Notes under the pieces: model-generated
Told to the model about the DNA's origin: nothing
What the model saw: only the letters and a program-made list of their open reading frames with translations
Database searches by the model: none
Program-made: the position numbers and the translations under genes
Shown: positions 30,777 through 42,912 of the stretch, one piece after another
Layout of the letters: every line of letters starts with the position of its first letter
Numbering within the stretch: position 1 is the stretch's first letter
Assembly: GCF_900890425.1 (NCBI RefSeq)
Contig: NZ_CAAHFG010000002.1
Coordinates: forward strand, 992,001-1,056,000
Length of the DNA stretch: 64,000 bases
DNA from: Pontiella desulfatans
Lineage (GTDB): Bacteria > Verrucomicrobiota > Kiritimatiellia > Kiritimatiellales > Pontiellaceae
Direction of reading: 5' to 3'

Positions 30777-31445
30777 TCACGAACCGTTCGACGTGAAAAG
30801 GCCTAGGCGGTGCGCTTTGTCGATGGCCGAAGGGGCGTTGGGGACGTTCAGTTTTTCATAGATGTGCTTGAGGTGGTCGGTCACGGTGTAGGTGCTTATT
30901 TTGAGCTGGCTGCTGATCTCCTTTTGGGAGAGACCTTTGGCGATTAACGAGAGCACCTCCCGCTCCCGTTCCGAGATCCCGCATTCGGTTGCCACCTTGG
31001 GGAGCCGGGGTTGCAGTGTTTTCAAGATGAAGCGGGCCAGGCTGGGTTCGAGGGTGGCGCCGCCATCCATGACGGTGCGGATGCCGGTCGTGATTTCATC
31101 CATGGTGGCGGATTTAAGGAGATATCCCGCGGCTCCTTGCTGGATGGCCCGCAGCACATCGGCCTCGTGGTCGGACTGGCTTAGGATGATGACCCGGGTG
31201 TCCGGCGCATACTTCGAGATCCACGGCATGGCATCCAGCCCGGACATGCCGGGCAAGTTGAGGTCGAGCAGGATGATGTCCGGTTCTGCGGCCCGGCCGC
31301 CATCCTGAAGGGTGCGCAGTGCCAACTCGGCATTGCCGAACTGGCTGACGAGTTCGAGGCCCTTTTTCTTTGCGAAGACAAATTCGAGGATTTCGCGATA
31401 TTCGGGGTGGTCTTCCACCAGCATGATTTTAATGGACGCGTTCAT
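30777..31445 (-). CDS. NarL/LuxR-family response regulator
   Basis: 222 residues. The receiver domain (about 5-125) has the acidic pair Glu11/Asp12, the phospho-acceptor Asp61 (DIILLDLNLPGMSG), a conserved Ser (ILSQSD) and the final Lys (YLLKSA). A LuxR-type helix-turn-helix follows at about 155-215 (ISEREREVLSLIAKGLSQKEI, then STYTVTDHLKHIYEKLN). Its start overlaps the end of the sensor kinase gene by 17 nt, so the two form an operon. I infer that it binds the 20-bp dyad found upstream of the kinase gene and of three genes in the rightward arm, because the form of that dyad resembles the inverted heptamers bound by NarL-type regulators. Confidence 0.93.
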   Translation of the reverse strand: MNASIKIMLVEDHPEYREILEFVFAKKKGLELVSQFGNAELALRTLQDGGRAAEPDIILLDLNLPGMSGLDAMPWISKYAPDTRVIILSQSDHEADVLRAIQQGAAGYLLKSATMDEITTGIRTVMDGGATLEPSLARFILKTLQPRLPKVATECGISEREREVLSLIAKGLSQKEISSQLKISTYTVTDHLKHIYEKLNVPNAPSAIDKAHRLGLFTSNGS

Positions 31446-33417
31446 GGTTCATCTTTCTTTTTTTGCTGCGGTGGCGAAGGCGGAGTTTGAGGCAGGTTCC
31501 ACCGGTGGGGACGGGCTCGACGGAGAGTTTGGCCTTGAGCAAGCGGGCGCGGCGCTTTAGCGAGGAGGGGATGTTTTCGCCGGACATCCCTTTGCCGTTG
31601 TCGCTGACCGTGAGGACGATCTCCCGGGGCGTGGCGGTCAGCGTGGTGCTGAAGCGGGTGGCATTGGAGTGGCGGCAAATGTTGATGAGGCTCTCTTTGT
31701 AGAAAAGGAACAGGTCGATGCGGGTACGGGCCTTCAGCTGCTCGAGGTAGTGTTCGCCTTCGATCGAAATCGTATGTTCCAGATTTGCGGTGATGCGCTG
31801 GGCGGCGCGTTGCATATCCTCGACGAGGCCTTGATAGAGGCCGTCGGCGTTGATGATGTTGGAAAAGTGCCGGATGGCGGTTCCCGTTCGTTCGGTCAAT
31901 TGACGGATGCGTTGGTGGAGCATGTTCCATTCGTCGGAGGCGTCGTGTGCGCTTTTGGCGGCATCGCTCAGCAACCCGATGGCATGGATGTTGGCGCCGA
32001 GTTCGTCGTGCAGGTCGGCGGCGAAGCGTTCCCGGAGCTTGGCGAGCTGCCTCAGGCGGAGGTTCCAGTCGATCAGCATGGTGAACCCGATGGCGGCGGT
32101 GAGCAGGGCGGCCAGCCAGCCCATGCGGCGGAGTTTTGTTTTTTGGTGCGCGTAGCGGCGGTTCAGTTCCGCCTCCACCCGTGGGCGCGCTTTTTCAAGA
32201 TCATGGCGGCGAACCAGCTGGTTCATCCATTCCCGCACCGGCAGGATGGTTCCATACATGTTGCGTCCATCCGTGAGCACGGATAGCGGCCGGTTCGGTT
32301 TGGCATGAACGTCGCTGCCCGTAATCGGTTTCCCGAGCGCGTGGTTTATGCCGCCGGACAACAGTTCGATTTCTGCAAAGCCAAAGCGCGTATCCTCCGC
32401 GTTATAGCTGGGGATTTCGGGGGGGGCGTCGATGTGCAGCCGGTAGAAGCGGTTGGTGGCCGGGGGAAAGTTCCACATCATGATCGGTCCCATGTGGAAA
32501 ATCGTTTCCAACCGGAGGTCGATCAAGGTTTCGGCGTCTGAAAAATCGGGCTGGTTCGCGCCCTCGAGGTGCATCTTTTTGGGAATGCCGAAGTCGCTGG
32601 CCAAGGCCTGGGGCAGGACATCGCTCGGGTCGATGGCATGGAGGTGCAGGAGGGAGACGGCTTGGGACTCGCCGAGGTCAATGGTGAGTGCAGGCGGGCT
32701 GGTGACGGGGTGCAGGCTGATGAAGGCAATGCTTTTTTCGCCCCCGACCGCGTCCATGAGGTATGGCACCAGTCCGTCGACGGCAAAGTTCACGCTCCAG
32801 GCACGGCCTTCGAACCGGTTCGATTTCGCAGCGATCGGCCGACGCAGCGCCACATTCACATCTCCACTGAACGCCATGATTTCAGAGAGTTCGAAGGCAT
32901 GTTTTTCATCGAATGCCCGAAGGGAAAGGCGGTCGGTTTCAATTCGGATCCATGATGCGGTGATGCCGTTGCACGGAATTGAAAGAGGGGCTATTCGAGG
33001 GAGGAAGTGCCGGTCGTCGGTGTATTCGGCCACCACGGTTCCCACCCGGTCCTGCTCGGTACCGGCGATCAGGCGAAGGTGTTTCGGAAAGCCGTCCGCC
33101 TGGAAGCCTTGCTTGGCATCCCGGCGGATCACCGGAACCAGGATGACTTGATCCAGGGGATATTCGGCTTGGAGGTTGATTTCCACCCATTCGGAATGGA
33201 ATTCGTCGTCGTGGATGTTTGAGCGGTATCCAATGGCCCCCACGCCGCTGCGCAGGCTGTAGTTTGCGAGCTGCTCCAGCTCGGCGCCAATGGCGTCGCG
33301 CCGTTGTTCGAGCTCCGGCAGGGAGAGCGCGTTGAATGCCGTGTCCACCGGGGCGGCCATGGCCGGGAGCCATCCGCCCAGCAGAAGCAATGTCGATAGG
33401 GTGCGATCAAAAGGCAT
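31429..33417 (-). CDS. NarL-type sensor histidine kinase with large extracytoplasmic discoidin-like region
   Basis: 662 residues with an N-terminal signal-like segment (TLSTLLLLGGWLPAMA). About 400 residues outside the cytoplasm follow; they contain two or three beta-sandwich stretches reminiscent of F5/8 type C (discoidin) domains (EWVEINLQAEYPLDQVILVPV, GITASWIRIETDRLSL, ALTIDLGESQAVSLLHLHAID). A transmembrane helix lies near 430-450 (MGWLAALLTAAIGFTMLI). The cytoplasmic part is a HisKA_3 dimerisation domain with His470 in FAADLHDELGANIHAIG, and a HATPase domain (NICRHSNATRFS as N-box, VSDNGKGMSG). Discoidin domains usually bind glycans or similar ligands, so direct sensing of a polysaccharide fragment is plausible. 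No clear ribosome site precedes the ATG, so the start is uncertain by a few codons. Confidence 0.88.
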   Translation of the reverse strand: MPFDRTLSTLLLLGGWLPAMAAPVDTAFNALSLPELEQRRDAIGAELEQLANYSLRSGVGAIGYRSNIHDDEFHSEWVEINLQAEYPLDQVILVPVIRRDAKQGFQADGFPKHLRLIAGTEQDRVGTVVAEYTDDRHFLPRIAPLSIPCNGITASWIRIETDRLSLRAFDEKHAFELSEIMAFSGDVNVALRRPIAAKSNRFEGRAWSVNFAVDGLVPYLMDAVGGEKSIAFISLHPVTSPPALTIDLGESQAVSLLHLHAIDPSDVLPQALASDFGIPKKMHLEGANQPDFSDAETLIDLRLETIFHMGPIMMWNFPPATNRFYRLHIDAPPEIPSYNAEDTRFGFAEIELLSGGINHALGKPITGSDVHAKPNRPLSVLTDGRNMYGTILPVREWMNQLVRRHDLEKARPRVEAELNRRYAHQKTKLRRMGWLAALLTAAIGFTMLIDWNLRLRQLAKLRERFAADLHDELGANIHAIGLLSDAAKSAHDASDEWNMLHQRIRQLTERTGTAIRHFSNIINADGLYQGLVEDMQRAAQRITANLEHTISIEGEHYLEQLKARTRIDLFLFYKESLINICRHSNATRFSTTLTATPREIVLTVSDNGKGMSGENIPSSLKRRARLLKAKLSVEPVPTGGTCLKLRLRHRSKKRKMNHERVH

Positions 33418-33540
33418 GTCGGTTTATAGCATATTCCGGACGACGGTCCTGTTTCAATTTTCGTTGGGGTTTCGCAGTGCGCGAAACGGGGCGCCGCGCC
33501 TTGAGCTAGGTAAAGGGTGTCAAACCGCTCCGGTTGCGGG

Positions 33541-33560
33541 TATCCCAAAATATTGGGATA
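33541..33560. promoter_or_regulatory. 20-bp dyad operator between the kinase and PEP-CTERM genes
   Basis: TATCCCAAAATATTGGGATA has perfect 8-bp arms around a 4-bp core. It lies in the divergent gap, 97 nt before the PEP-CTERM start and 123 nt before the kinase start, with no T run, so it is not a terminator. Two relatives occur at 37861 and 41733. Confidence 0.65.
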
Positions 33561-33657
33561 GACGGATTTTATCGAGGGCATACACTTTTTGGACTAGTCG
33601 GAATAGGGCAATGCCTGCCGCTTATCGGCGCGTTTGGAAAGGGAAACGAGGATAACC

Positions 33658-34335
33658 ATGAAAAAAATACAATGTGCATTGAGTATTGGTTTGCTGGCGG
33701 CGGGTGTCGCGCAGGCGGTGCTGGTCGATCTCGCCTTGCCGGCGGCCGGGAACCATGCCTCTGGGTCGGGTTTCTCGACCGCGGCATCCTTCAATGGCGC
33801 TACGTTCGATATTGAGTATACGCTGAATGCCTTTGCAACAAGCAACAGCCCGGCTCCGTTTATTCGCTCCAGTGGCGGAACCTATTTCGGGGTGGGATCC
33901 GCCCTTGATCCCAACACGGGAAACCAGGAATCCATCGATGGCGACGACGGCGAACAGCTGTCCATTGCCGGCCTTTCAATCGTTAATTTCAGCGCGAATG
34001 GTTCCGGCCTTGTGCAAGGCGATCTGAGTATTGCATTCCAATCCCTGTCGATTGCCAACGGAACTGCCGCCAACGACGGCATAACGATTTCCTTCACGGG
34101 TTTCGGGGATGCTACGGTGGACGTAACCCATCCCACAACGTTGGATCTAACATCCCTCGCAAATTTTGGTTCGAGCTCCACGGCATTGTTCCTGGAGCCT
34201 GACGGCCCGCAGTCCAACAACAGATGGTCCGTTTCCGGCATCTCCGTGTCCGTCATCCCCGAACCGGCCACGCTGGGGATGGTCGTGGCTTCCGCCGCCG
34301 GAATGCTGGTCATCCGCCGCCGCTTCCTGATCTGA
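33658..34335 (+). CDS. PEP-CTERM protein carrying a second type of stand-alone module
   Basis: 225 residues from the ATG at 33658 (ACGAGGATAACC upstream); signal peptide MKKIQCALSIGLLAAGVAQA. The tail IPEPATLGMVVASAAGMLVI plus RRRFLI is a canonical PEP-CTERM exosortase signal. The body is one beta-rich module with FNGATFDIEYTL, GDDGEQLSIAGLSIVNFSAN, ISFTGF and NRWSVSGISVSV. The same landmarks occur at the N-terminus of the protein at 37978 and, more distantly, twice in the protein at 34406. No catalytic residues can be picked out. It opens the rightward arm of locus 2 behind the 20-bp dyad and ends in a terminator, as expected for a highly expressed surface protein. A binding role is inferred. 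Confidence 0.87.
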   Translation: MKKIQCALSIGLLAAGVAQAVLVDLALPAAGNHASGSGFSTAASFNGATFDIEYTLNAFATSNSPAPFIRSSGGTYFGVGSALDPNTGNQESIDGDDGEQLSIAGLSIVNFSANGSGLVQGDLSIAFQSLSIANGTAANDGITISFTGFGDATVDVTHPTTLDLTSLANFGSSSTALFLEPDGPQSNNRWSVSGISVSVIPEPATLGMVVASAAGMLVIRRRFLI

Positions 34336-34358
34336 TCGCGAACGGGTTTCATGAGTTG

Positions 34359-34386
34359 CGCCGTTTCCGACCGAAGCGGCGTTTTT
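34359..34386 (+). terminator. rho-independent terminator after the second PEP-CTERM gene
   Basis: Stem CGCCGTTTC / GAAGCGGCG with a 5-nt loop, followed by TTTTTG. The next start codon is 20 bp downstream, so read-through must supply the following gene unless a promoter lies inside the PEP-CTERM gene. Confidence 0.75.
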
Positions 34387-34405
34387 GCTAAAAGAGGAAA
34401 TGCCG

Positions 34406-37400
34406 ATGACGGTGAAAAACCAACTGGCCATCATGGCGCTTGCCGCGGTCGTACGGACGGCTGCGGCGGACGTGGTGAACGTACAGATCAAGGCCACGGC
34501 CAATACGGACTATGGCACCAATGCCGTTGCAACGTTGCTTTCGGAGGTGTTGACCGCGCCCGACGGGCGGGCCACCTATCAGGTTGCCTTCGAGGTCACC
34601 CCGCCGGCGGGGCGCAGCATCCGTAGCGGGGTTACGGGGACCGCGGGTTCCTCAACCGCACAAAGCTGGGGCGTGGGCCCTGAAAACACGCTGTTCAACG
34701 GGGACAATGATGACCGGGTGGAGCGCATCGGGAATCTGCAGATCACCAATTTCAATGCCAACGGAGGCGAACTGGACGCGGGCCACTTTTTCGGGTTGTC
34801 GTTCACGTCGGTTGAGCTGGCCAATGCGCAATCGGCCAACAAGGATGATGTGCTGGTGGTCTTGAACGGTTCCATGACCAACGACCTCGGCGATCTGGTT
34901 GCCAATCCCGAGTCGATCGACCTGGAGGCCTTGGCGGGCGTTCCGGTAACGGAATTCTCGTTGGCCAATGGCACAACCAACACGACCGACAAATGGTCGG
35001 TCAACCAGGTCGGGGTGTCGGTTGGCATTGCGTGGCGCGCCGACTGGATGCGCGGCGCGTGGGGCCTGAGCTGGGCGCCGGAGGGGATGTACAACGGCCG
35101 CAGTGAAACGTTGGTGGATGATTATGAAACCTTTCTCGAACAGATCGGCGGGTTGAAGACGATCGACTATGTCCAGCTGAACCTGGGCATGTCCTATATC
35201 TATTCCCCGGTCCACCTGGGGCCGCATGCGCTGCTGGAAAGTTTTTGGCGGGGCGACACCGATGCCGAGGGGAATCCCATCAACCTGGTTGTTCCGCGGG
35301 CCTCGTCCGGCGTGGATCCGCTCGGGGAGTGGGCGGCGGCCACGAAGGCGGCCGGACTGAAGGTTCAGGTCTATGTGAACAGTTCCCAGATGCTGCGGCG
35401 GGGGGATATTCCCAACCCGGCCGTCATTCCCGATATTACGGAACGCTGGACCACCTGGTGCGATACCAATGCGGCGGCGCAGGCGTTCATTGCGAGCCAG
35501 CCGTATCATACCGACGGCACGAACACGAACCGCCCCTACATGTTCTGCTATGCGGAGTTTGTGCTGAAGGAATATTCCCTTCGCTACGGGGAGCTGATCG
35601 ATTCATACATCTTTGATTCGGGCTACATGCTGGGTAGCAATGGCGACAATGCCACCGGTGGTGTCGCCTCCGAACAACTGCTTTACAAGGCGTTTTCCGA
35701 TGCGGCGCGCGCGGGCAATCCCAACGCAACGGTTTCCTACAACAACAGCCCCGAACGGGATACCGAAGTGCTCAATCCCTTTTCGGAGGCGGTTCATTTC
35801 GAAGACTACATGTTCGGCCATCCCTACAACGGCGGGAACAACATCGGAAGCCACACCATCGGGGATCCGCCGCTCTACGACCGGAACTATGCGCACATCC
35901 AGAAGATGACCGAGACCGGCGGCAATGTGCACGAGGGCGAGCTGACGCACGACTGGCTTTGGGACGACCGGGTGGTCGGCCATTTCTATCCGCCCATGAG
36001 CACCACGGCGTGGAATGCGGGGCAAACCCCGGCGCTGACGGATGCCGAATTCCTGCTGTGGAACCTGGAGGCGATGCAGGCCGGCGGTGCCATCTCCTGG
36101 GGCGCCCCGCTGAATTGGCCGCCCGGCAATGGCGTCAGCCTGCTCATTCGGGATTGGGGCATGGACCAGCTGGCCCTGATGGATGCCCATCTTTGCACCA
36201 ACGAAGTGCCCGGGGCCCCGCAATGGGCGCGGCAGCATACCCCGTTGCCGGACGCAACCATCGGGCAGGCCTATTTCCATGTCCTTACCGAAGGCGTGCA
36301 TTTCTGGGATCCGGAAGGCGATGCCGTCACGAATGTGTCGTTTGCCTCCGCTGCGGGCGGACCTTCGTCGTGGATGACGATTGCGGAAATGCCGGGGAAC
36401 CCGGGAAGCTGGCAACTGACGGGGATCCCGACCGAGGCCGCCGCAACGGAATATGAATTCAGGCTCCGGATTGAAGATGCATCCGGCGGAACCGAGCGGA
36501 AGGTTCGGCTGGGCGTCAACGCGCCCCCCGCGTTTTTGGATGGACCGGAGGGGTATCCCGTGTGGGCGGCCGATCCGCTGGAGCTCCCGGATGCCGTGGT
36601 TCATGAAGCCTATGCCCAGGTGTTGATCCAGGGGCTGGATTTCCAGGATTTTGAAGAGACCAACCTGGACGTTTCAAAAATCGGCGGAGCCGGTTGGCTT
36701 TCCCTTGCCGAAGCGGCGCCGGGCTGGTGGCGGTTGTCGGGGGTTCCTTCCCCTGCGGATGCCGGCCTCGAAACGGTGGAGCTGCGGGTTAGCGATGGAA
36801 CCAACGCAACGGACTGCACCCTCGTCTTCACCGTTGAGCCGGCCGTGGACAAGGCGTCGATCCTGGCCGCGGCAAACCAGAATTATGGAACCGATGCCGT
36901 CGCCACCATGCTCTCGGATGTTCAAACGGCCTACGACGGGCTGGCCACCTTCCAGTTTGCCGTCGATGTGGTTCCTGGGGCTGGAACCGCCATCCGCAGC
37001 GGAAATGGAGGCGGGGCCACAACGAGCCAAAGCTGGGGCATTTTTTCCTCCGGCGAGACGGACAATGCCCGGTTTATTTTCAATGGGGATGAAGCGGAAT
37101 TCGTGGAGAGCATTGGGAATCTGCGGCTGGTCAACTTCGCTGACGGCGGGGGCCGCCTGTCCGCCGGGGATATCCGGAACGTGTCCTTCGAGTCCATCAC
37201 CATTGCCGATGCCCAGTCCGGCGGCAAGGATTCGCTTTATGTGACGGTGGGGTCGGTCAGCAATAACCTGGGTGACCTGGGGAGCAATATCCATGTGGTC
37301 AATCTGGAAGCACTATCGGGGGGATCTGCCCCGGTAACTGCGTTTGCGCTCGGAACGAGCACGACCAACGCGCTGAATAAATGGTCGGTCAATAGCATCG

Positions 37401-37828
37401 AGGTGAACTATTCGGTTCTGGGGCCCGAAACCTATTCCACCTGGGCCTACGACCATGGGCTGGTGGGGGGCCACGGCGCACCCGGTTCCGATTCGGGCGA
37501 CCTCGACGGCTACGCCAACCTCGCCGAATTTGCGTTGGGCATGGACCCGAATCTGGCGGATGCCGGAACCCGCGATTCCGCCGGCCTGGTGACCACCGGG
37601 GGGACGGGCTATGTCGAGTGGGTCTATCGCCGCCGTTCGGATCACGTTGCGCAAGGGTTGTCCTATCTGCTGATCGATTCCACGAATTTGGTCGGGCCCC
37701 GTTCCGGAACCAATGCCGCGGATCACATCCAGGTCGGCCCGGCGGTCGATGGCTACGAGCCGGTGACGAACCGCTATTCGACCGGCGAACCGGCGAAGTT
37801 CATCGAGTTCAGGATTCGGCAGGACTAA
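34406..37828 (+). CDS. giant secreted protein with putative GH29-like TIM barrel and duplicated binding module
   Basis: 1140 residues from the ATG at 34406 (AGAGGA seven bases upstream); signal peptide MTVKNQLAIMALAAVVRTAAA. Order of parts: module copy 1 (about 24-205, SWGVG ... NLQITNFNANGGELDAG ... KWSVNQVGVSV); a probable TIM barrel (about 211-602, ADWMRGAWGLSWAPEGMYNG, GLKVQVYVNSSQMLRRG, LIDSYIFDSGYMLG, and a late WGAPLNWPPGNG); two Ig-like domains (about 604-707 and 709-812); module copy 2 (about 814-1005); and a second-type tail (LDGYANLAEFALGMDPNLAD ... FIEFRIRQD). The strand carrying IDSYIFDSG resembles the nucleophile strand of GH29 enzymes (IIWFDTP), so Asp in FDS is a candidate catalytic residue. 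I cannot place it in a known family; a fucan- or fucosidase-related glycosidase is my guess. Confidence 0.75.
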   Translation: MTVKNQLAIMALAAVVRTAAADVVNVQIKATANTDYGTNAVATLLSEVLTAPDGRATYQVAFEVTPPAGRSIRSGVTGTAGSSTAQSWGVGPENTLFNGDNDDRVERIGNLQITNFNANGGELDAGHFFGLSFTSVELANAQSANKDDVLVVLNGSMTNDLGDLVANPESIDLEALAGVPVTEFSLANGTTNTTDKWSVNQVGVSVGIAWRADWMRGAWGLSWAPEGMYNGRSETLVDDYETFLEQIGGLKTIDYVQLNLGMSYIYSPVHLGPHALLESFWRGDTDAEGNPINLVVPRASSGVDPLGEWAAATKAAGLKVQVYVNSSQMLRRGDIPNPAVIPDITERWTTWCDTNAAAQAFIASQPYHTDGTNTNRPYMFCYAEFVLKEYSLRYGELIDSYIFDSGYMLGSNGDNATGGVASEQLLYKAFSDAARAGNPNATVSYNNSPERDTEVLNPFSEAVHFEDYMFGHPYNGGNNIGSHTIGDPPLYDRNYAHIQKMTETGGNVHEGELTHDWLWDDRVVGHFYPPMSTTAWNAGQTPALTDAEFLLWNLEAMQAGGAISWGAPLNWPPGNGVSLLIRDWGMDQLALMDAHLCTNEVPGAPQWARQHTPLPDATIGQAYFHVLTEGVHFWDPEGDAVTNVSFASAAGGPSSWMTIAEMPGNPGSWQLTGIPTEAAATEYEFRLRIEDASGGTERKVRLGVNAPPAFLDGPEGYPVWAADPLELPDAVVHEAYAQVLIQGLDFQDFEETNLDVSKIGGAGWLSLAEAAPGWWRLSGVPSPADAGLETVELRVSDGTNATDCTLVFTVEPAVDKASILAAANQNYGTDAVATMLSDVQTAYDGLATFQFAVDVVPGAGTAIRSGNGGGATTSQSWGIFSSGETDNARFIFNGDEAEFVESIGNLRLVNFADGGGRLSAGDIRNVSFESITIADAQSGGKDSLYVTVGSVSNNLGDLGSNIHVVNLEALSGGSAPVTAFALGTSTTNALNKWSVNSIEVNYSVLGPETYSTWAYDHGLVGGHGAPGSDSGDLDGYANLAEFALGMDPNLADAGTRDSAGLVTTGGTGYVEWVYRRRSDHVAQGLSYLLIDSTNLVGPRSGTNAADHIQVGPAVDGYEPVTNRYSTGEPAKFIEFRIRQD

Positions 37829-37860
37829 GCCGCCGATCCCGCAGGAAACGGGATGGATGG

Positions 37861-37880
37861 AATCCCAGAATATTGGGATA
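37861..37880. promoter_or_regulatory. 20-bp dyad operator, second copy
   Basis: AATCCCAGAATATTGGGATA: the arms match the copy at 33541 apart from two bases. It ends 97 nt before the ATG at 37978, the same distance as at the first site. No T run follows. Confidence 0.6.
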
Positions 37881-37977
37881 TGCAGCTTTCCGTGGTTTGT
37901 TAAATTGCTTCAACAATCGGGGTAAGGCGTGCGCTTTGCCGGCAGGATGGTTCAAGTTGTAATTGGAGGAAAAAAAG

Positions 37978-40287
37978 ATGAAGACCGGACTCAAATCAAT
38001 CACCACCCTCATCGGCGCAGGGTGCGCCTGCATGATGGCGGCGCAGGCGGCAGTGGTTGCGACCAATCTTAACATTGCGGCGGCCGGAAGCTATCCGGGC
38101 GAAACCGTTATCACGACCGCGCAGGAATACAATGGCGCCACATTCGATATTAACTACACGCTCGGCTCGATTGCAAACGGCTCGAATTCGTTTGTCTATG
38201 CCACGGCTGCCGTGATGGGGGTTGGGTCGGATACCGATATCGCCAACCACTATTCCACCCTGGAGGGCGACGATGGCGAAGGCATGTCGTTCACCAGCCT
38301 CTCGATCTCCAACTTCAGCGCGGGTGCGAGCGGACTCGTGCTCGAAGACATCACCGATCTCGCCTTTGTCAGCTTCTCTGTCGGGGCGTCCGGCCACAAC
38401 CCGGATGGCGTTACGATGTCGTTCACCGGCTTTACGAACAATACTTCCTCCATGAGCCTCACCGGCTTGGGGTTGAACTATACGGTCGACCTGACCGCTC
38501 GACCTAATTATCCCGTTGCGCCGTCTTTGGCGACCAACCTGTTCGTGAAGCCGAATAGTGCGAGCGGTTCCAATCGATGGAACGTCGACGGCGTCGGGGT
38601 GAGCTTTGTCGTGAGTACGGGGGCAAACGAGGCTCCTGAAGCGGACGCGCAAAGCCTGCAGACGCTGCCCGACACCGCCGTGGAGATCACGCTGAGCGGA
38701 AGCGATTTCGAGGGTAGCAACCTGACCTATGCCGTGAACGACTCGCTGCTCGTTGGATCGCTCACCGGCGCAACGAATAAATGGACCTACCTGCCAAGCC
38801 CCGGCTTTGAAGGCTTGGACAGCTTTACATTCACCGTCAACGACGGATCGTTGGATAGCGACCCGGCCACGGTTTCCATCACGGTGACGAATGAGCGGCC
38901 GGTCGCCACGCCGCAAGTTGTGGAGGCATTGCGTAACACCCCGCTCGCCATAGCATTGGCCGGCACCGATACGGACGGTCCCAGCAATCTGACCTATAAC
39001 GTGGTTTCGGGCCCAACCTCGGGCGCGCTGAGCGGTACGGAACCGAACCTGACCTACACCCCGACGAATGGCTTTGCCGGAGTCGACGCCTTTACGTTCA
39101 CGGTCTTCGACGGATTGAATGCCAGTGCCGAGGCAACCGTTACGATCAATGTGCTCAACAATCCTCCGGTTGCAGATTCGAAGATTCTGTTTACCCTGCC
39201 GGATACCGCTGTCGCGATCCTGCTTTCCGGAAGCGATCCGGAAGGAAGCGGTCTGGTGTTCAACGTGGATACCCTGCCGGCCAACGGAGCGCTGACCGGC
39301 ACGGAACCGAACCTGACCTATACCCCGACCAACGGTTTCATCGGAACGGACAGCTTTACCTACTCCGCATATGATGGAGAAACCACCGGAGCCGTCGCCA
39401 CGGTATCCATCTCGGTTTCAGCGGATGGGTTCAATCTTTCCTTCGAGGAGCTCGGTACGGCACTCTCGGGCAACACACTGAATGTCGGCGGCATCGCGGC
39501 GGACGTCGTTGGTGTTTCCACGAATCTTGATTATCTCTATTCGGTTTCCTTTGCCGGAGCCGACCTCGACGGGGATGCGGCCAACGATGAAGTGACCTTC
39601 GATGTGCGCGTCAAGGCCTGGACCAATGGCGTGACGGATCTGGGCTTCGACGACGGATCATCAAACCTCTCCACCAACGTGGCCAGCGCAACGGTTGGTA
39701 CGTCCAATATTGCCGTCAACCTGGCGAATGGAAACTTCACGACGCTTGGCAATACCATGCCCGACGGCTCAACCCTGGAATTCACGATTGAAAACGTTGC
39801 CGTATCCCTGACGGACGCAACCAAGACCGGCAGTGCCGTTTCAACCGGCTTCAACGCCGTTCTGTTGTCGGAAATCAATAATGGCAACTCCCACCAGACG
39901 ATCTTCGGCGAAGGCACGGGATTGCTGGGTTGGATGTGGAGTACCCCCGACCAATTCCCTGTTTCGGGCATCGATGTTGGTGCGGGGCCGCTCTATGTCT
40001 CTTCGGGCGCCACGACCAATGCCACCGCGACGCGACCGTTTAACTGGGGCGTCAGGGAGCTCGACTTCGGCATCCAGGTCACGGTGGTTTCGGCGGCCAT
40101 TCCGGCGGTCTCCATCGATGTGTCCGGTGGCGATCTGGTGTTCGCCTGGGAAGGCGGCGGCACCTACGACGTACTGACCAATGCCAACCTCATGTTCCCG
40201 AACTGGGGCGTTGCCGTTCCGGGTGCATCGTCACCGGTAACCAACGCCGTCGGCAGCGAACCCGTGCTGTTCTTCAAACTAGACTAA
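37978..40287 (+). CDS. secreted module/cadherin-like repeat protein
   Basis: 769 residues from the ATG at 37978 (GGAGGAAAAAAAG upstream); signal peptide MKTGLKSITTLIGAGCACMMAAQA. The N-terminal module (about 23-216) closely matches the PEP-CTERM protein at 33658 (YNGATFDINYTL, GDDGEGMSFTSLSISNFSAG, NRWNVDGVGVSF). Three cadherin-like repeats of about 85 residues follow (from about 220, 307 and 393), each with LSGSD..GS.L and F.G.D.F[TS] landmarks. Next is an unrecognised beta domain (about 483-704). The last 60 residues contain GTYDVLTNANLMFPNW and end in FFKLD, a short form of the tail seen on other large proteins here. No catalytic motif is visible; adhesion to glycan is the likeliest role. 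A strong terminator follows. Confidence 0.8.
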   Translation: MKTGLKSITTLIGAGCACMMAAQAAVVATNLNIAAAGSYPGETVITTAQEYNGATFDINYTLGSIANGSNSFVYATAAVMGVGSDTDIANHYSTLEGDDGEGMSFTSLSISNFSAGASGLVLEDITDLAFVSFSVGASGHNPDGVTMSFTGFTNNTSSMSLTGLGLNYTVDLTARPNYPVAPSLATNLFVKPNSASGSNRWNVDGVGVSFVVSTGANEAPEADAQSLQTLPDTAVEITLSGSDFEGSNLTYAVNDSLLVGSLTGATNKWTYLPSPGFEGLDSFTFTVNDGSLDSDPATVSITVTNERPVATPQVVEALRNTPLAIALAGTDTDGPSNLTYNVVSGPTSGALSGTEPNLTYTPTNGFAGVDAFTFTVFDGLNASAEATVTINVLNNPPVADSKILFTLPDTAVAILLSGSDPEGSGLVFNVDTLPANGALTGTEPNLTYTPTNGFIGTDSFTYSAYDGETTGAVATVSISVSADGFNLSFEELGTALSGNTLNVGGIAADVVGVSTNLDYLYSVSFAGADLDGDAANDEVTFDVRVKAWTNGVTDLGFDDGSSNLSTNVASATVGTSNIAVNLANGNFTTLGNTMPDGSTLEFTIENVAVSLTDATKTGSAVSTGFNAVLLSEINNGNSHQTIFGEGTGLLGWMWSTPDQFPVSGIDVGAGPLYVSSGATTNATATRPFNWGVRELDFGIQVTVVSAAIPAVSIDVSGGDLVFAWEGGGTYDVLTNANLMFPNWGVAVPGASSPVTNAVGSEPVLFFKLD

Positions 40288-40308
40288 TCAGAGGGTTAAG
40301 TACGGACA

Positions 40309-40347
40309 GGCCTGCCCGGTTGTTCTCCAACTGGGCAGGCTTTTAAT
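40309..40347 (+). terminator. strong rho-independent terminator
   Basis: A near-perfect stem GCCTGCCCGGTTG / CAACTGGGCAGGC with a TTCTC loop, then TTTTAATTA. It separates the cadherin-like protein gene from the sulfatase series. Confidence 0.88.
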
Positions 40348-40364
40348 TAGGATTGAAGGAAGCA

Positions 40365-41723
40365 ATGAAACAAACGGTAAAACGAATTGTGCTGGCGGGT
40401 GCGATGTCCGCTTTTGCATGGGCGGCATTCGGAGCGAAGCCACCCAATATCATTTTCATCTTCGCGGATGACTGGGGCTATGGCGACATGGGGAAGCACG
40501 GCAGCACCTTCTGCCAAACCCCGAACCTCGACCGCATGGCGGAGGAGGGAATCGATTTCGCGAACTTCACCGTCAACAGCCCGGTCTGCTCCCCGAGCCG
40601 GGTGGCGGTCATGACCGGCCAGTTCCCGGCGCGGCATTCGATCCACCAGCATTTCCAGGGCATCAAGGCCCATATTAAACGGGGCATGGCCGATTGGCTC
40701 GACCCGCAGGCGCCGATGCTGCCGCGCATGCTCAAGGAGGCCGGTTATGCGACCGGCCATTTCGGGAAGTGGCATCTCGGCAGCGTGGGCGATTCGCCGA
40801 CGGAAGAGGCCTATGGCTACGACCGGTTCGCCACGTTCAACGGCTCGGGAAAAAATGAAATTGCCAAGGGCGGTTCGGAGTCGGTGGATCATGCGGAGAC
40901 CTTCATCCGCGAGTTTAAAGACCAACCGTTTTTCATCAACCTGTGGCTGCATGAGGCGCATACGCCGCACCTGCCGCAGGATCGGTTCATGGAACAGTTC
41001 AAGCAGCTTGGCGAGGCCGAGCAGGTTTATGCGTCGATCATCGCCGAAGGCGACGAGGCCATCGGGCGCATCATGAAATTGCTGAAGGAACTGGGCATTG
41101 ACGAAAACACCTTGGTGGTCTTCTCCACCGACAATGGCCCGGAGCACTCGGACAATGAAAAAGACCACAAGGGGCAGGGCCTCGGTAAATTCTATTCCGT
41201 CGGGGAGACCGGCGGGCTGAAAGGGGAAAAACGCTCGCTTTTTGCGGGGGGAATCCGCGTGCCCTTCGTCGTCCGCTGGCCTGCGGTGGTGCCGAAGGGA
41301 AAGACCGATGCAACCTCGGTCATCACCGCTGTTGATCTGCTGCCGACGTTTCTTGAGGCCGCCGGTGTTGCGCTGCCGCCAGGCTACAGGCCGGATGGCG
41401 AAAGCGCCTTGGCCGCCTTCAAAGGAGAGGTGTTTACGCGAACCAAGCCGATCTTCTGGGAATGGCGGGGCGGGGACAACGGGGACCATACCTGGCCCTC
41501 CCTCGGGATCCGGGATGGGAAGTGGAAACTGCTGGTCAATGCGGCAACGCGCCAGATGGAGTTGTATGATCTGGAGAGCGACTGGGCGGAGCAAAACGAT
41601 GTTGCCGCCGACTTTCCGGAAGTGGTTCGGAACCTGTCCGTGAAGCTCGAGGCCTGGAAAAAGGAGCTGCCCACCGAACCGGGTGCAAGCGCGTTGTCCA
41701 AGGCCCGCTCGAAGAAGAAATAG
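40365..41723 (+). CDS. Cys-type sulfatase
   Basis: 452 residues from the ATG at 40365 (GAAGGA upstream); signal peptide MKQTVKRIVLAGAMSAFAWAAFG. The N-terminal alkaline-phosphatase-like domain has PNIIFIFADDWGYGDMG with the metal-binding Asp pair and the signature CSPSR at Cys75, which a formylglycine-generating enzyme must modify. Later come TGHFGKWHLG and STDNGPEH, the third metal-binding motif. It would hydrolyse a sulfate ester of a glycan in the periplasm or outside. It follows a terminator and precedes the third 20-bp dyad, so it may be a separate transcription unit with its own unseen promoter. Confidence 0.93.
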   Translation: MKQTVKRIVLAGAMSAFAWAAFGAKPPNIIFIFADDWGYGDMGKHGSTFCQTPNLDRMAEEGIDFANFTVNSPVCSPSRVAVMTGQFPARHSIHQHFQGIKAHIKRGMADWLDPQAPMLPRMLKEAGYATGHFGKWHLGSVGDSPTEEAYGYDRFATFNGSGKNEIAKGGSESVDHAETFIREFKDQPFFINLWLHEAHTPHLPQDRFMEQFKQLGEAEQVYASIIAEGDEAIGRIMKLLKELGIDENTLVVFSTDNGPEHSDNEKDHKGQGLGKFYSVGETGGLKGEKRSLFAGGIRVPFVVRWPAVVPKGKTDATSVITAVDLLPTFLEAAGVALPPGYRPDGESALAAFKGEVFTRTKPIFWEWRGGDNGDHTWPSLGIRDGKWKLLVNAATRQMELYDLESDWAEQNDVAADFPEVVRNLSVKLEAWKKELPTEPGASALSKARSKKK

Positions 41724-41732
41724 GGGCCAGGC

Positions 41733-41752
41733 CATCCCTAATTATAGGGATG
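41733..41752. promoter_or_regulatory. 20-bp dyad operator, third copy
   Basis: CATCCCTAATTATAGGGATG has perfect 8-bp arms around ATTA; the arms share ATCCC/GGGAT and the 8-4-8 layout with the copies at 33541 and 37861. It ends 101 nt before the probable start at 41854. No T run follows. Confidence 0.55.
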
Positions 41753-41853
41753 CACGGGGGCTGGAGAATGGCCTACGCTGTTGGGGCATGAAGAAAAGGT
41801 GATGCGGTTGAGAACGGCATGCTTTTGCGATGGATTTATTTTTGGAGACAAGG

Positions 41854-42912
41854 ATGCAGGGAATGAAGGCGTTGAAGTTGGTTTTGCTGGGTGGTTTGCT
41901 GTCGGGCATGTGGTGCGAACGGGTTGGAGGCATCGAAGTGTCTTCCTTTTGCCAGGCCCAGGTGCCCGGGGAATATGTGCTGGAGGCCGAAGAAGGCACC
42001 TGGACTTGGGGCATGGCGCCGATCTACGATGAAGCAGGAAAGCTGCACATATTCAATTCCATCATTCCCAGGAGCGGCAGCTGGATCAAAAACAGTCGGA
42101 TTGCGCATTGGGTCGCCGACCGGCCGGAAGGCCCGTACACCTTTCTGGGCAACGTGTTTGCAAGCGACGACGCCAGCTATCATAACCCGCAAATCTCCAA
42201 AGTGGGCGACACCTATGTCCTGGTCTTTCTGCTGAACCGGCACCGCGACGAAAACGGCTCGAAACAGGAGGTCGGGATTGCCACGGCCAAGTCGCCGGAT
42301 GGGCCGTGGACGGAAAGTCCATTGAACCCGATCATTCCCGCGGCCGGGGTGTTGAATGGCTACCAGATCGTCCATGCCTCGAATCCAACCTTTGTCGTGA
42401 CCCCGGAAGGAACGTTCCGGATTTATTACAAAACGATGACGGATGCATTACCCATAAAGAAGGGTTTCCGTGAAATTGCGTTTGCCGAAAGCGACACCAT
42501 CGAAGGCCCCTATGTGAACTATGCGCACAACCCGGTCATCAGTTATGCGGATAAGCAACTCGACATCGAAGATCCCTATGCCTTCTACTACAACGGAATG
42601 TACTACATGATCGTTGAAGATCGCCAGGGGGTGAAGAATATGCTGGAAGGCAACCCAATTCCGGCCGGACAGCTCAAGAAGGGCGGATATCGCCCGGGCC
42701 TGATCTACCAGTCCAAGGACGGGATTGATTGGGGGGAGCCGAAGGTCGGCTACCTGACCAACGAGATGTATTTCGGACATAAACTTGCGCGCAGCGAACG
42801 ACCGAGCATCCTGTGGAAGGACGGCAAGCCGGAATGCCTCTTCCTGGCCTGCCACGATGAAAAACCGTCTGCCGGATATTTTGTGAGAATCAATAACTGG
42901 AATGGGGAATAG
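41854..42912 (+). CDS. five-bladed-propeller glycoside hydrolase-like protein (GH43/GH117 type)
   Basis: 352 residues from the ATG at 41854 (GGAG six bases upstream). An in-frame ATG at 41830 is less well placed. The signal peptide is short (MKALKLVLLGGLLSGMW after four residues). The body reads as repeated propeller blades: WTWGMAPIYDEAGKLHIFNS, SYHNPQISKVGDTYVLVFLL, HASNPTFVVTPEGTFRIYYK, LDIEDPYAFYYNGMYYMIVED, ERPSILWKDGKPECLFLAC. Acidic residues at the starts of blades 1, 3 and 4 could be the catalytic set, as in GH43 and GH117 enzymes, but I cannot assign a family with confidence. It abuts the next sulfatase gene with no gap, so the two are co-transcribed and probably act on the same glycan. 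Confidence 0.82.
   Translation: MQGMKALKLVLLGGLLSGMWCERVGGIEVSSFCQAQVPGEYVLEAEEGTWTWGMAPIYDEAGKLHIFNSIIPRSGSWIKNSRIAHWVADRPEGPYTFLGNVFASDDASYHNPQISKVGDTYVLVFLLNRHRDENGSKQEVGIATAKSPDGPWTESPLNPIIPAAGVLNGYQIVHASNPTFVVTPEGTFRIYYKTMTDALPIKKGFREIAFAESDTIEGPYVNYAHNPVISYADKQLDIEDPYAFYYNGMYYMIVEDRQGVKNMLEGNPIPAGQLKKGGYRPGLIYQSKDGIDWGEPKVGYLTNEMYFGHKLARSERPSILWKDGKPECLFLACHDEKPSAGYFVRINNWNGE

Follow-up and report, generated by a model that had tools for sequence, protein, structure and literature searches.

Dyad promoters beside a NarL-type two-component system of Pontiella desulfatans: putative operators with half-sites matched to the regulator's recognition helix

The lux box, read by the LuxR-type HTH of LuxR, is a 20-bp dyad positioned near −42.5. 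In Bacteroidetes, polysaccharide loci are governed by hybrid two-component systems, in which a single polypeptide carries an AraC-type HTH. E. coli NarX and NarL, a HisKA_3 kinase and its regulator, signal nitrate, and the NarL dimer sits on an inverted repeat abutting the −35 element; activation is reported from such sites, centred at −44.5 in ogt and lying just upstream of the −35 element in yeaR (PMC7419079). RcsB has the same HTH fold but makes few base contacts and has degenerate sites (PMC5829831). In the genus of interest here, Pontiella agarivorans has genes for a PF07730/PF02518 kinase and a PF00072 regulator close to its GHs and sulfatases, with sensing only proposed; a term search of that paper turned up neither operators nor promoters (PMC10880615).

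We analysed a 64,000-nt stretch of the Pontiella desulfatans genome (the window, C2:992001–1056000) in which three dyads stand near a HisKA_3 kinase and a NarL-type regulator. The preliminary description had likened these dyads to the inverted heptamers with short spacer that NarL-type regulators bind. The inverted repeat stands, but the spacing differs from the 7-2-7 sites of E. coli NarL, with an 18-bp core whose arms, flanking an oriented A-tract, stand ∼2 bp further apart; where NarX and NarL respond to nitrate, the Pontiella pair probably responds to a glycan. The dyads resemble the lux box in length, position and HTH type, whereas the half-site differs and LuxR, unlike the Pontiella regulator, binds a ligand and has no receiver domain. 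Compared to RcsB sites, the Pontiella half-site is well defined and paralogue-specific. With the Bacteroidetes hybrids the system shares two-component regulation, probably by glycan sensing, beside degradation genes and many paralogues per genome, but here the kinase and the NarL-type regulator are separate proteins.

Three dyads, their genes and the neighbouring kinase–regulator pair

All three dyads were recovered (Table 1). The start codons at 33658, 37978 and 41854 follow them at 97, 97 and 101 nt, just as had been described. Their half-sites are, in the same order, ATCCCA, ATCCCA and ATCCCT; arms of 6–7 bp flank a centre of 4–6 bp, with columns 1–6 of the core pairing with columns 13–18. 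Dinucleotide shuffles of the window gave 0 matches to the 20-mer at up to three mismatches, and the three dyads are the only places in the window where ATCCC-N8-GGGAT occurs free of mismatches. A generic promoter score, applied to both strands of the window, ranked the three sites at the top (28.6, 26.8 and 16.9), with no other site above 12; the lowest of these values belongs to the site at 41733, which matches poorly right after the dyad. By itself, ATCCC-N8-GGGAT was rejected as a specific marker, as it occurs at 19 places in the genome, several of them within genes. One such match, at C1:1771458, is a stem with a TTCG loop.

Table 1. Features of the kinase–regulator locus, in window coordinates
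Feature	Position	Strand	Remarks
NarL-type response regulator, 222 aa	30777..31445	−	Receiver + LuxR/GerE HTH; Pfam Response_reg 3e-23, GerE 2.7e-18
Cognate sensor histidine kinase, 662 aa	31429..33417	−	H470; Pfam HisKA_3 + HATPase_c; TM helix
Dyad 1, 20-bp form	33541-33560	+	TATCCCAAAATATTGGGATA
Dyad 1, core	33542..33559	+	ATCCCAAAATATTGGGAT; putative activator operator
Promoter 1, −35	33559..33564	+	TAGACG, degenerate; overlaps last dyad base; spacer 16
Promoter 1, −10	33581..33586	+	TACACT; 21 nt after dyad
PEP-CTERM sorted protein, first gene after promoter 1	33658..34335	+	TIGR02595 match
1140-aa protein, second gene after promoter 1	34406..37828	+	Start from our own gene caller
Dyad 2, 20-bp form	37861-37880	+	AATCCCAGAATATTGGGATA; two mismatches to dyad 1
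Dyad 2, core	37862..37879	+	ATCCCAGAATATTGGGAT
Promoter 2, −35	37879..37884	+	TATGCA, degenerate; spacer 16
Promoter 2, −10	37901..37906	+	TAAATT; 21 nt after dyad
Pontiellaceae leader motif	37915..37927	+	AATCGGGGTAAGG; 8 nt after −10 of promoter 2
Cadherin-like / Big_9 (tandem-95) protein, first gene after promoter 2	37978..40287	+	Pfam, NCBIfam
Sulfatase, second gene after promoter 2	40365..41723	+	Pfam Sulfatase 4e-51
Dyad 3, 20-bp form	41733-41752	+	CATCCCTAATTATAGGGATG
Dyad 3, core	41734..41751	+	ATCCCTAATTATAGGGAT
Promoter 3, −35	41751..41756	+	TGCACG, degenerate; spacer 17
Promoter 3, −10	41774..41779	+	TACGCT; 22 nt after dyad
GH43/GH117-like enzyme, first gene after promoter 3	41854..42912	+	Pfam Glyco_hydro_43 slightly below cut-off (31.5 vs 32.2)

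The regulator is of the NarL/FixJ type, with both Response_reg and GerE above the Pfam cut-offs. Its best solved relative is NarL (1a04, E 5e-29), and it scores 131.9 bits against the E. coli NarL equivalog NF007935, for which the NCBIfam cut-off is 250 bits. The recognition helix carries Y186, T189, D190, H191, L192, K193 and H194, and alignment to 1a04 places T189, D190 and K193 opposite K188, V189 and K192 of NarL. HisKA_3, above its cut-off, identifies the partner as a HisKA_3 sensor kinase, with HATPase_c falling slightly under (23.3 vs 26.4). An AlphaFold model of the kinase (pLDDT 83) matched DesK and VraS kinases in Foldseek; matches to the whole protein were all to kinase domains and did not inform on the sensor, and Pfam gave no sensor domain for the window kinase itself. 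In 35 of 40 relatives, however, Pfam recognised F5_F8_type_C in the sensor, and a sensor-only model (pLDDT 89) matched tandem CBM32/discoidin domains, neuropilin b1b2 and fucosidase-associated modules (Foldseek E 3e-6 to 1e-5; overall TM-scores were low, consistent with two domain copies whose mutual arrangement differs). Based on the relatives' Pfam matches and this model, the predicted sensor is a pair of F5/8-type-C (CBM32-like) domains.

Gene starts were taken from a simple caller that we wrote ourselves. The 1140-aa protein had no match in Pfam or NCBIfam. From 41854 up to 53519 the genes run on the same strand and include sulfatases and a GH29 fucosidase (Pfam Sulfatase, Alpha_L_fucos). 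The window's half-site type recurs at C1:2057826 and C1:2066137 (−; L080), two sites that lie >50 kb from the nearest kinase–regulator pair, in a cluster that holds another GH29 fucosidase and cadherin-like genes; this is possibly a second locus under the window regulator, controlled in trans. Given the sulfatases, the GH29 and GH43/117-like genes and this second GH29 cluster, the signal may, as a reasonable guess and no more than that, be a fucose-containing sulfated glycan.

Promoter geometry in the genome and in three phyla

Downstream of the 18-bp core, a TANNNT hexamer follows at 21, 21 and 22 nt for dyads 1, 2 and 3, a spacing first noticed when the three promoters were compared with the other ATCCC-N8-GGGAT sites of the genome. 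Exact matches to the composite ATCCC-N8-GGGAT-N21-TANNNT number 6 in the 8.66-Mb genome, compared to ∼0.3 expected by our own arithmetic over 13 fixed positions, so that in this context the dyads are clearly not random. The weak −35 element begins with the last T of the dyad, and the position-wise preference after the dyad is A-G-R-C-A. The regulator had been proposed to act from a fixed upstream position. The adjacent regulator would indeed act from such a position, but one measured from the −10 box (21/22 nt) rather than from the ATG: across 36 related loci the dyad–ATG distance has a median of 99 nt and ranges from 57 to 266, and its near-constancy in the window stems from a constant distance between dyad and −10 box together with leaders of similar length. 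Assuming the usual distance from −10 box to transcription start, the dyad centre would therefore lie at about −42.5 or −43.5. This is an activator position, as deduced from the −10 box, and it agrees with a class II-like arrangement (centre about −41.5 to −44.5, fixed −10 spacing), the centre again being reckoned from the −10 box. Dyad position and poor −35 elements together suggest activation.

To extend the comparison to relatives, we collected 110 distinct loci of related kinases in Kiritimatiellota, Verrucomicrobiota and Planctomycetota, drawn both from named genomes (Pontiella, Opitutia, Akkermansiaceae, Rubritalea, Pelagicoccus, Rhodopirellula and others) and from four same-genus genomes, the relatives within the genus including Pontiella sulfatireligans. 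When perfect 6+6 dyads 5′ of the kinase were picked without information on the −10 box in these 110 loci, TANNNT fell at 21 nt in 9 cases and at 22 nt in 12, compared to 0.53 per other offset (P = 6e-9 and 6e-13, respectively). In 81 of the 110 regions the best score exceeded the 95% level of shuffled regions, by a score built from part of these sites and so partly trained on the same loci. Over 412 kb of the P. desulfatans genome this score found 23 sites, compared to 0 in the shuffled control. The sites share a conserved AT-rich core and, in it, an oriented A-tract. One caveat here is that the site-picking scores contain symmetry and weak base preferences, and hence symmetry statistics on picked sites, such as the pair count of alignment A3, are partly circular. 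The symmetry-only spacing tests and the control for presence or absence across genomes are free of this circularity. Distant NarL-type pairs (L085–L087) showed no such sites above the score used; thus, on sequence grounds, the promoter design seems to belong to this kinase–regulator subfamily.

For that control, we built a covariance model of the promoter and scored the best 150 candidates per genome, so that all counts are lower bounds. The P. desulfatans genome contains at least 26 matches at E ≤ 1, at least 25 of which lie within 65 kb of one of ten kinase–regulator pairs, an area that makes up 11% of the genome. At E ≤ 0.1, each of the four same-genus genomes with the kinase family has at least 17–33 matches, whereas ten genomes without the family yielded 0 among the best 150 candidates of each.

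The claim that the regulator also controls its own operon, through the side of dyad 1 that faces the divergent kinase gene, was not borne out in the window, where that side lacks a TANNNT at 21–22 nt. Kinase-facing TANNNT hexamers at 21–22 nt do occur in 22 of 72 related loci (about 30%), compared to about 1–2 per other offset. By this sequence pattern, some relatives' loci are predicted bidirectional promoters, and autoregulation may occur in the family.

A separate element, AATCGGGGAAGGC, starts 8 nt past the −10 box (near +2 of the predicted transcript) in the window (37915–37927) and at L070, L072, L077, L092, L096 and L098, and often opens a small hairpin (GGAAGGC-loop-GCTTTCC). Agreement at 9 or more of its 13 positions was seen for 14 of 34 Pontiellaceae sites, compared to 0.34 expected, and for 1 of 41 sites elsewhere. 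It is possibly a 5′ stabilising or regulatory element. We discarded the idea of a general Pontiella promoter motif, since close matches occur mostly at these dyad promoters.

Paralogous pairs and covariation with the recognition helix

The P. desulfatans genome encodes ten close kinase–regulator pairs, the window pair included, the others being 43–62% identical to it. Nine of the ten have a nearby promoter of the same design with its own dyad sequence: ATCCCA..TGGGAT in the window, and elsewhere ATCCCG..TGCGAT, ATCCCG..CAGGAT, GGGGGG..CCCCAT, ATCGCA..TGCGAT, ACCCTC..GAGGGT, ATCGCT..AGCGAT, ATCTAC..GTGGAT and, heading the operon that holds the kinase and regulator of the L078 pair, ATCCTC..AAGGAT. 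The design varies somewhat, with a gap of 23 nt between dyad and −10 box at L075 and a poorly symmetric dyad at L073. At the tenth pair (L074, C1:2116796–2119257) the regulator ORF is truncated and has lost its HTH part, and the dyad is decayed (ATCCTAAAATATTAGAAT); decay of the operator seems to accompany that of the regulator. Several pairs have extra sites of their own type nearby, as with two at the L079 pair. As little as a single base separates some half-sites (ATCCCG vs ATCCCA), so cross-binding among paralogous regulators is possible.

Several observations concern individual loci. Sites with the same half-site stand opposed in one divergent region at C1:3396654 and 3396738 (L078), one of them facing the kinase–regulator operon. 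A promoter-model match at C2:1329650 lies ∼2 kb from a lone fragment of a regulator HTH (C2:1327719–1327955), likely a remnant locus. A 386-aa DDE_Tnp_1 transposase is repeated (L076:3453–4610 and L075:12639–13796, equally long ORFs also occurring in L075 and L077), and the L076 copy appears to have split a divergent target gene from its dyad promoter. Proteins with a common N-terminus like KHAKSSAALVSLGIHAVLVIVALSFVAVTVI are encoded at L080:11534–12898 (−), L080:3–890 (−) and L079:12223–13527; the one tested had no Pfam match.

Next, we calculated the mutual information between each regulator column (∼210) and each half-site base, using 44 regulators with <75% mutual identity and 200 permutations. 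The highest values were seen for columns 191 (base 1, Z = 9.0), 190 (base 2, Z = 8.7) and 189 (base 6, Z = 8.6), all beyond the family-wise 95% threshold of 7.27. Columns 194 and 186 came next if receiver-domain column 15 is set aside, and all of these lie in the recognition helix. Column 15 also exceeded the threshold, and hence shared ancestry is incompletely controlled. With the similarity of the rest of the protein removed, the partial correlation between helix and site is 0.386, a value reached in 0 of 2000 permutations. Leave-one-out prediction recovered 77.8% of bases, where choosing the majority base recovers 68.0% and the best permutation reached 71.2%; applied to the window regulator, it returned ATCCCT, the half-site of dyad 3.

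Overall, the half-site covaries with helix residues 186, 189–191, 193 and 194. At base 1, H191 goes with A (68/74) and F or Y191 with G (11/14). Base 2 is T with T190 (50/52) and C with Y190 (10/10), and base 3 is G with N190 (4/4). Almost all residues at 193 go with C at base 4, R193 permitting others, mostly purines. T186 is accompanied by T at base 5 and Y or F186 by C, while base 6 is G with D189 (12/14) and C with A189. Columns 191, 190 and 189 align with NarL 190, 189 and 188, and the covarying set with NarL 185–193. In the RcsB crystal structure, K180 and S184, which are the equivalents of 189 and 193 by our own alignment, contact bases (PMC5829831). We lean towards the view that these correspondences approach a readable code for NarL-type regulators (residue 191 for base 1, 190 for bases 2 and 3, 193 for base 4, 186 for base 5 and 189 for base 6), which would separate co-resident glycan-sensing systems in three phyla while one promoter geometry is kept.

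Alternative readings and implications

The reading that we favour, at a probability of roughly 0.88, is that the dyads are operators from which the regulator at 30777–31445 activates the three promoters, within a family-wide design with matched half-sites. With two CBM32-like domains as its sensor, a membrane kinase would detect a sugar or glycan and phosphorylate the NarL-type regulator. The regulator dimer would then bind the 18-bp dyad, one half-site, ATCCC(A/T), to each recognition helix, and, from this dyad that abuts and slightly overlaps the poor −35 element, would recruit sigma-70 RNA polymerase to the promoters of what would be a fucoidan-type degradation locus. Related pairs in the three phyla keep the geometry and the central A-tract and vary the half-site along with residues 186, 189–191, 193 and 194, and this variation would insulate paralogous systems from each other. 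Of the earlier proposal that the response regulator activates this arm of the locus, what stands is the adjacent NarL-type regulator as the likely binder, given that 9 of 10 pairs have a site of their own sequence and that the site tracks the recognition helix; the part concerning its own operon finds no support in the window. These sequence comparisons lend good support to activation of the three promoters by the adjacent regulator.

The dyads could instead be operators of another factor, of LacI, AraC or GntR type or a global regulator, that lie near two-component genes by chance. LacI-type operators are also palindromes of 16–20 bp, and the sites at C1:2057826 and C1:2066137 share the half-site type and are unlinked to a pair. 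Such a factor is nevertheless very unlikely, as the dyad differs from pair to pair in one genome and follows the recognition helix of the regulator, and as promoter-model matches, among the best 150 candidates per genome, were confined to genomes with the family. RNA hairpins or intergenic terminators that involve no DNA-binding protein are hardly credible. Perfect inverted repeats in intergenic positions, several soon after a stop codon, would suit them, but the dyads lie 5′ of the −10 box and have no T-run, their AT-rich core and oriented A-tract are conserved, and a search of Rfam matched no family.

It is also conceivable, though unlikely, that the regulator is a repressor, occupying −51 to −34 and shutting off the −35 region until a signal releases it. 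The dyad does overlap the −35 position, and NarL represses from some sites (PMC4549865). Two features argue against this. The −35 hexamers (TAGACG, TATGCA and TGCACG) are poor, and the spacing of 21/22 nt between dyad and −10 box is held across phyla, which recruitment of polymerase needs and steric blocking does not.

The Kiritimatiellota, like most of the PVC group, have seen little work on gene regulation despite their very many sulfatases and glycosidases. In this family, sequence alone predicts the operons under each sensor, with promoter coordinates, and dozens of regulator–operator pairs open the rules by which the NarL/LuxR fold reads DNA to residue and base swaps.
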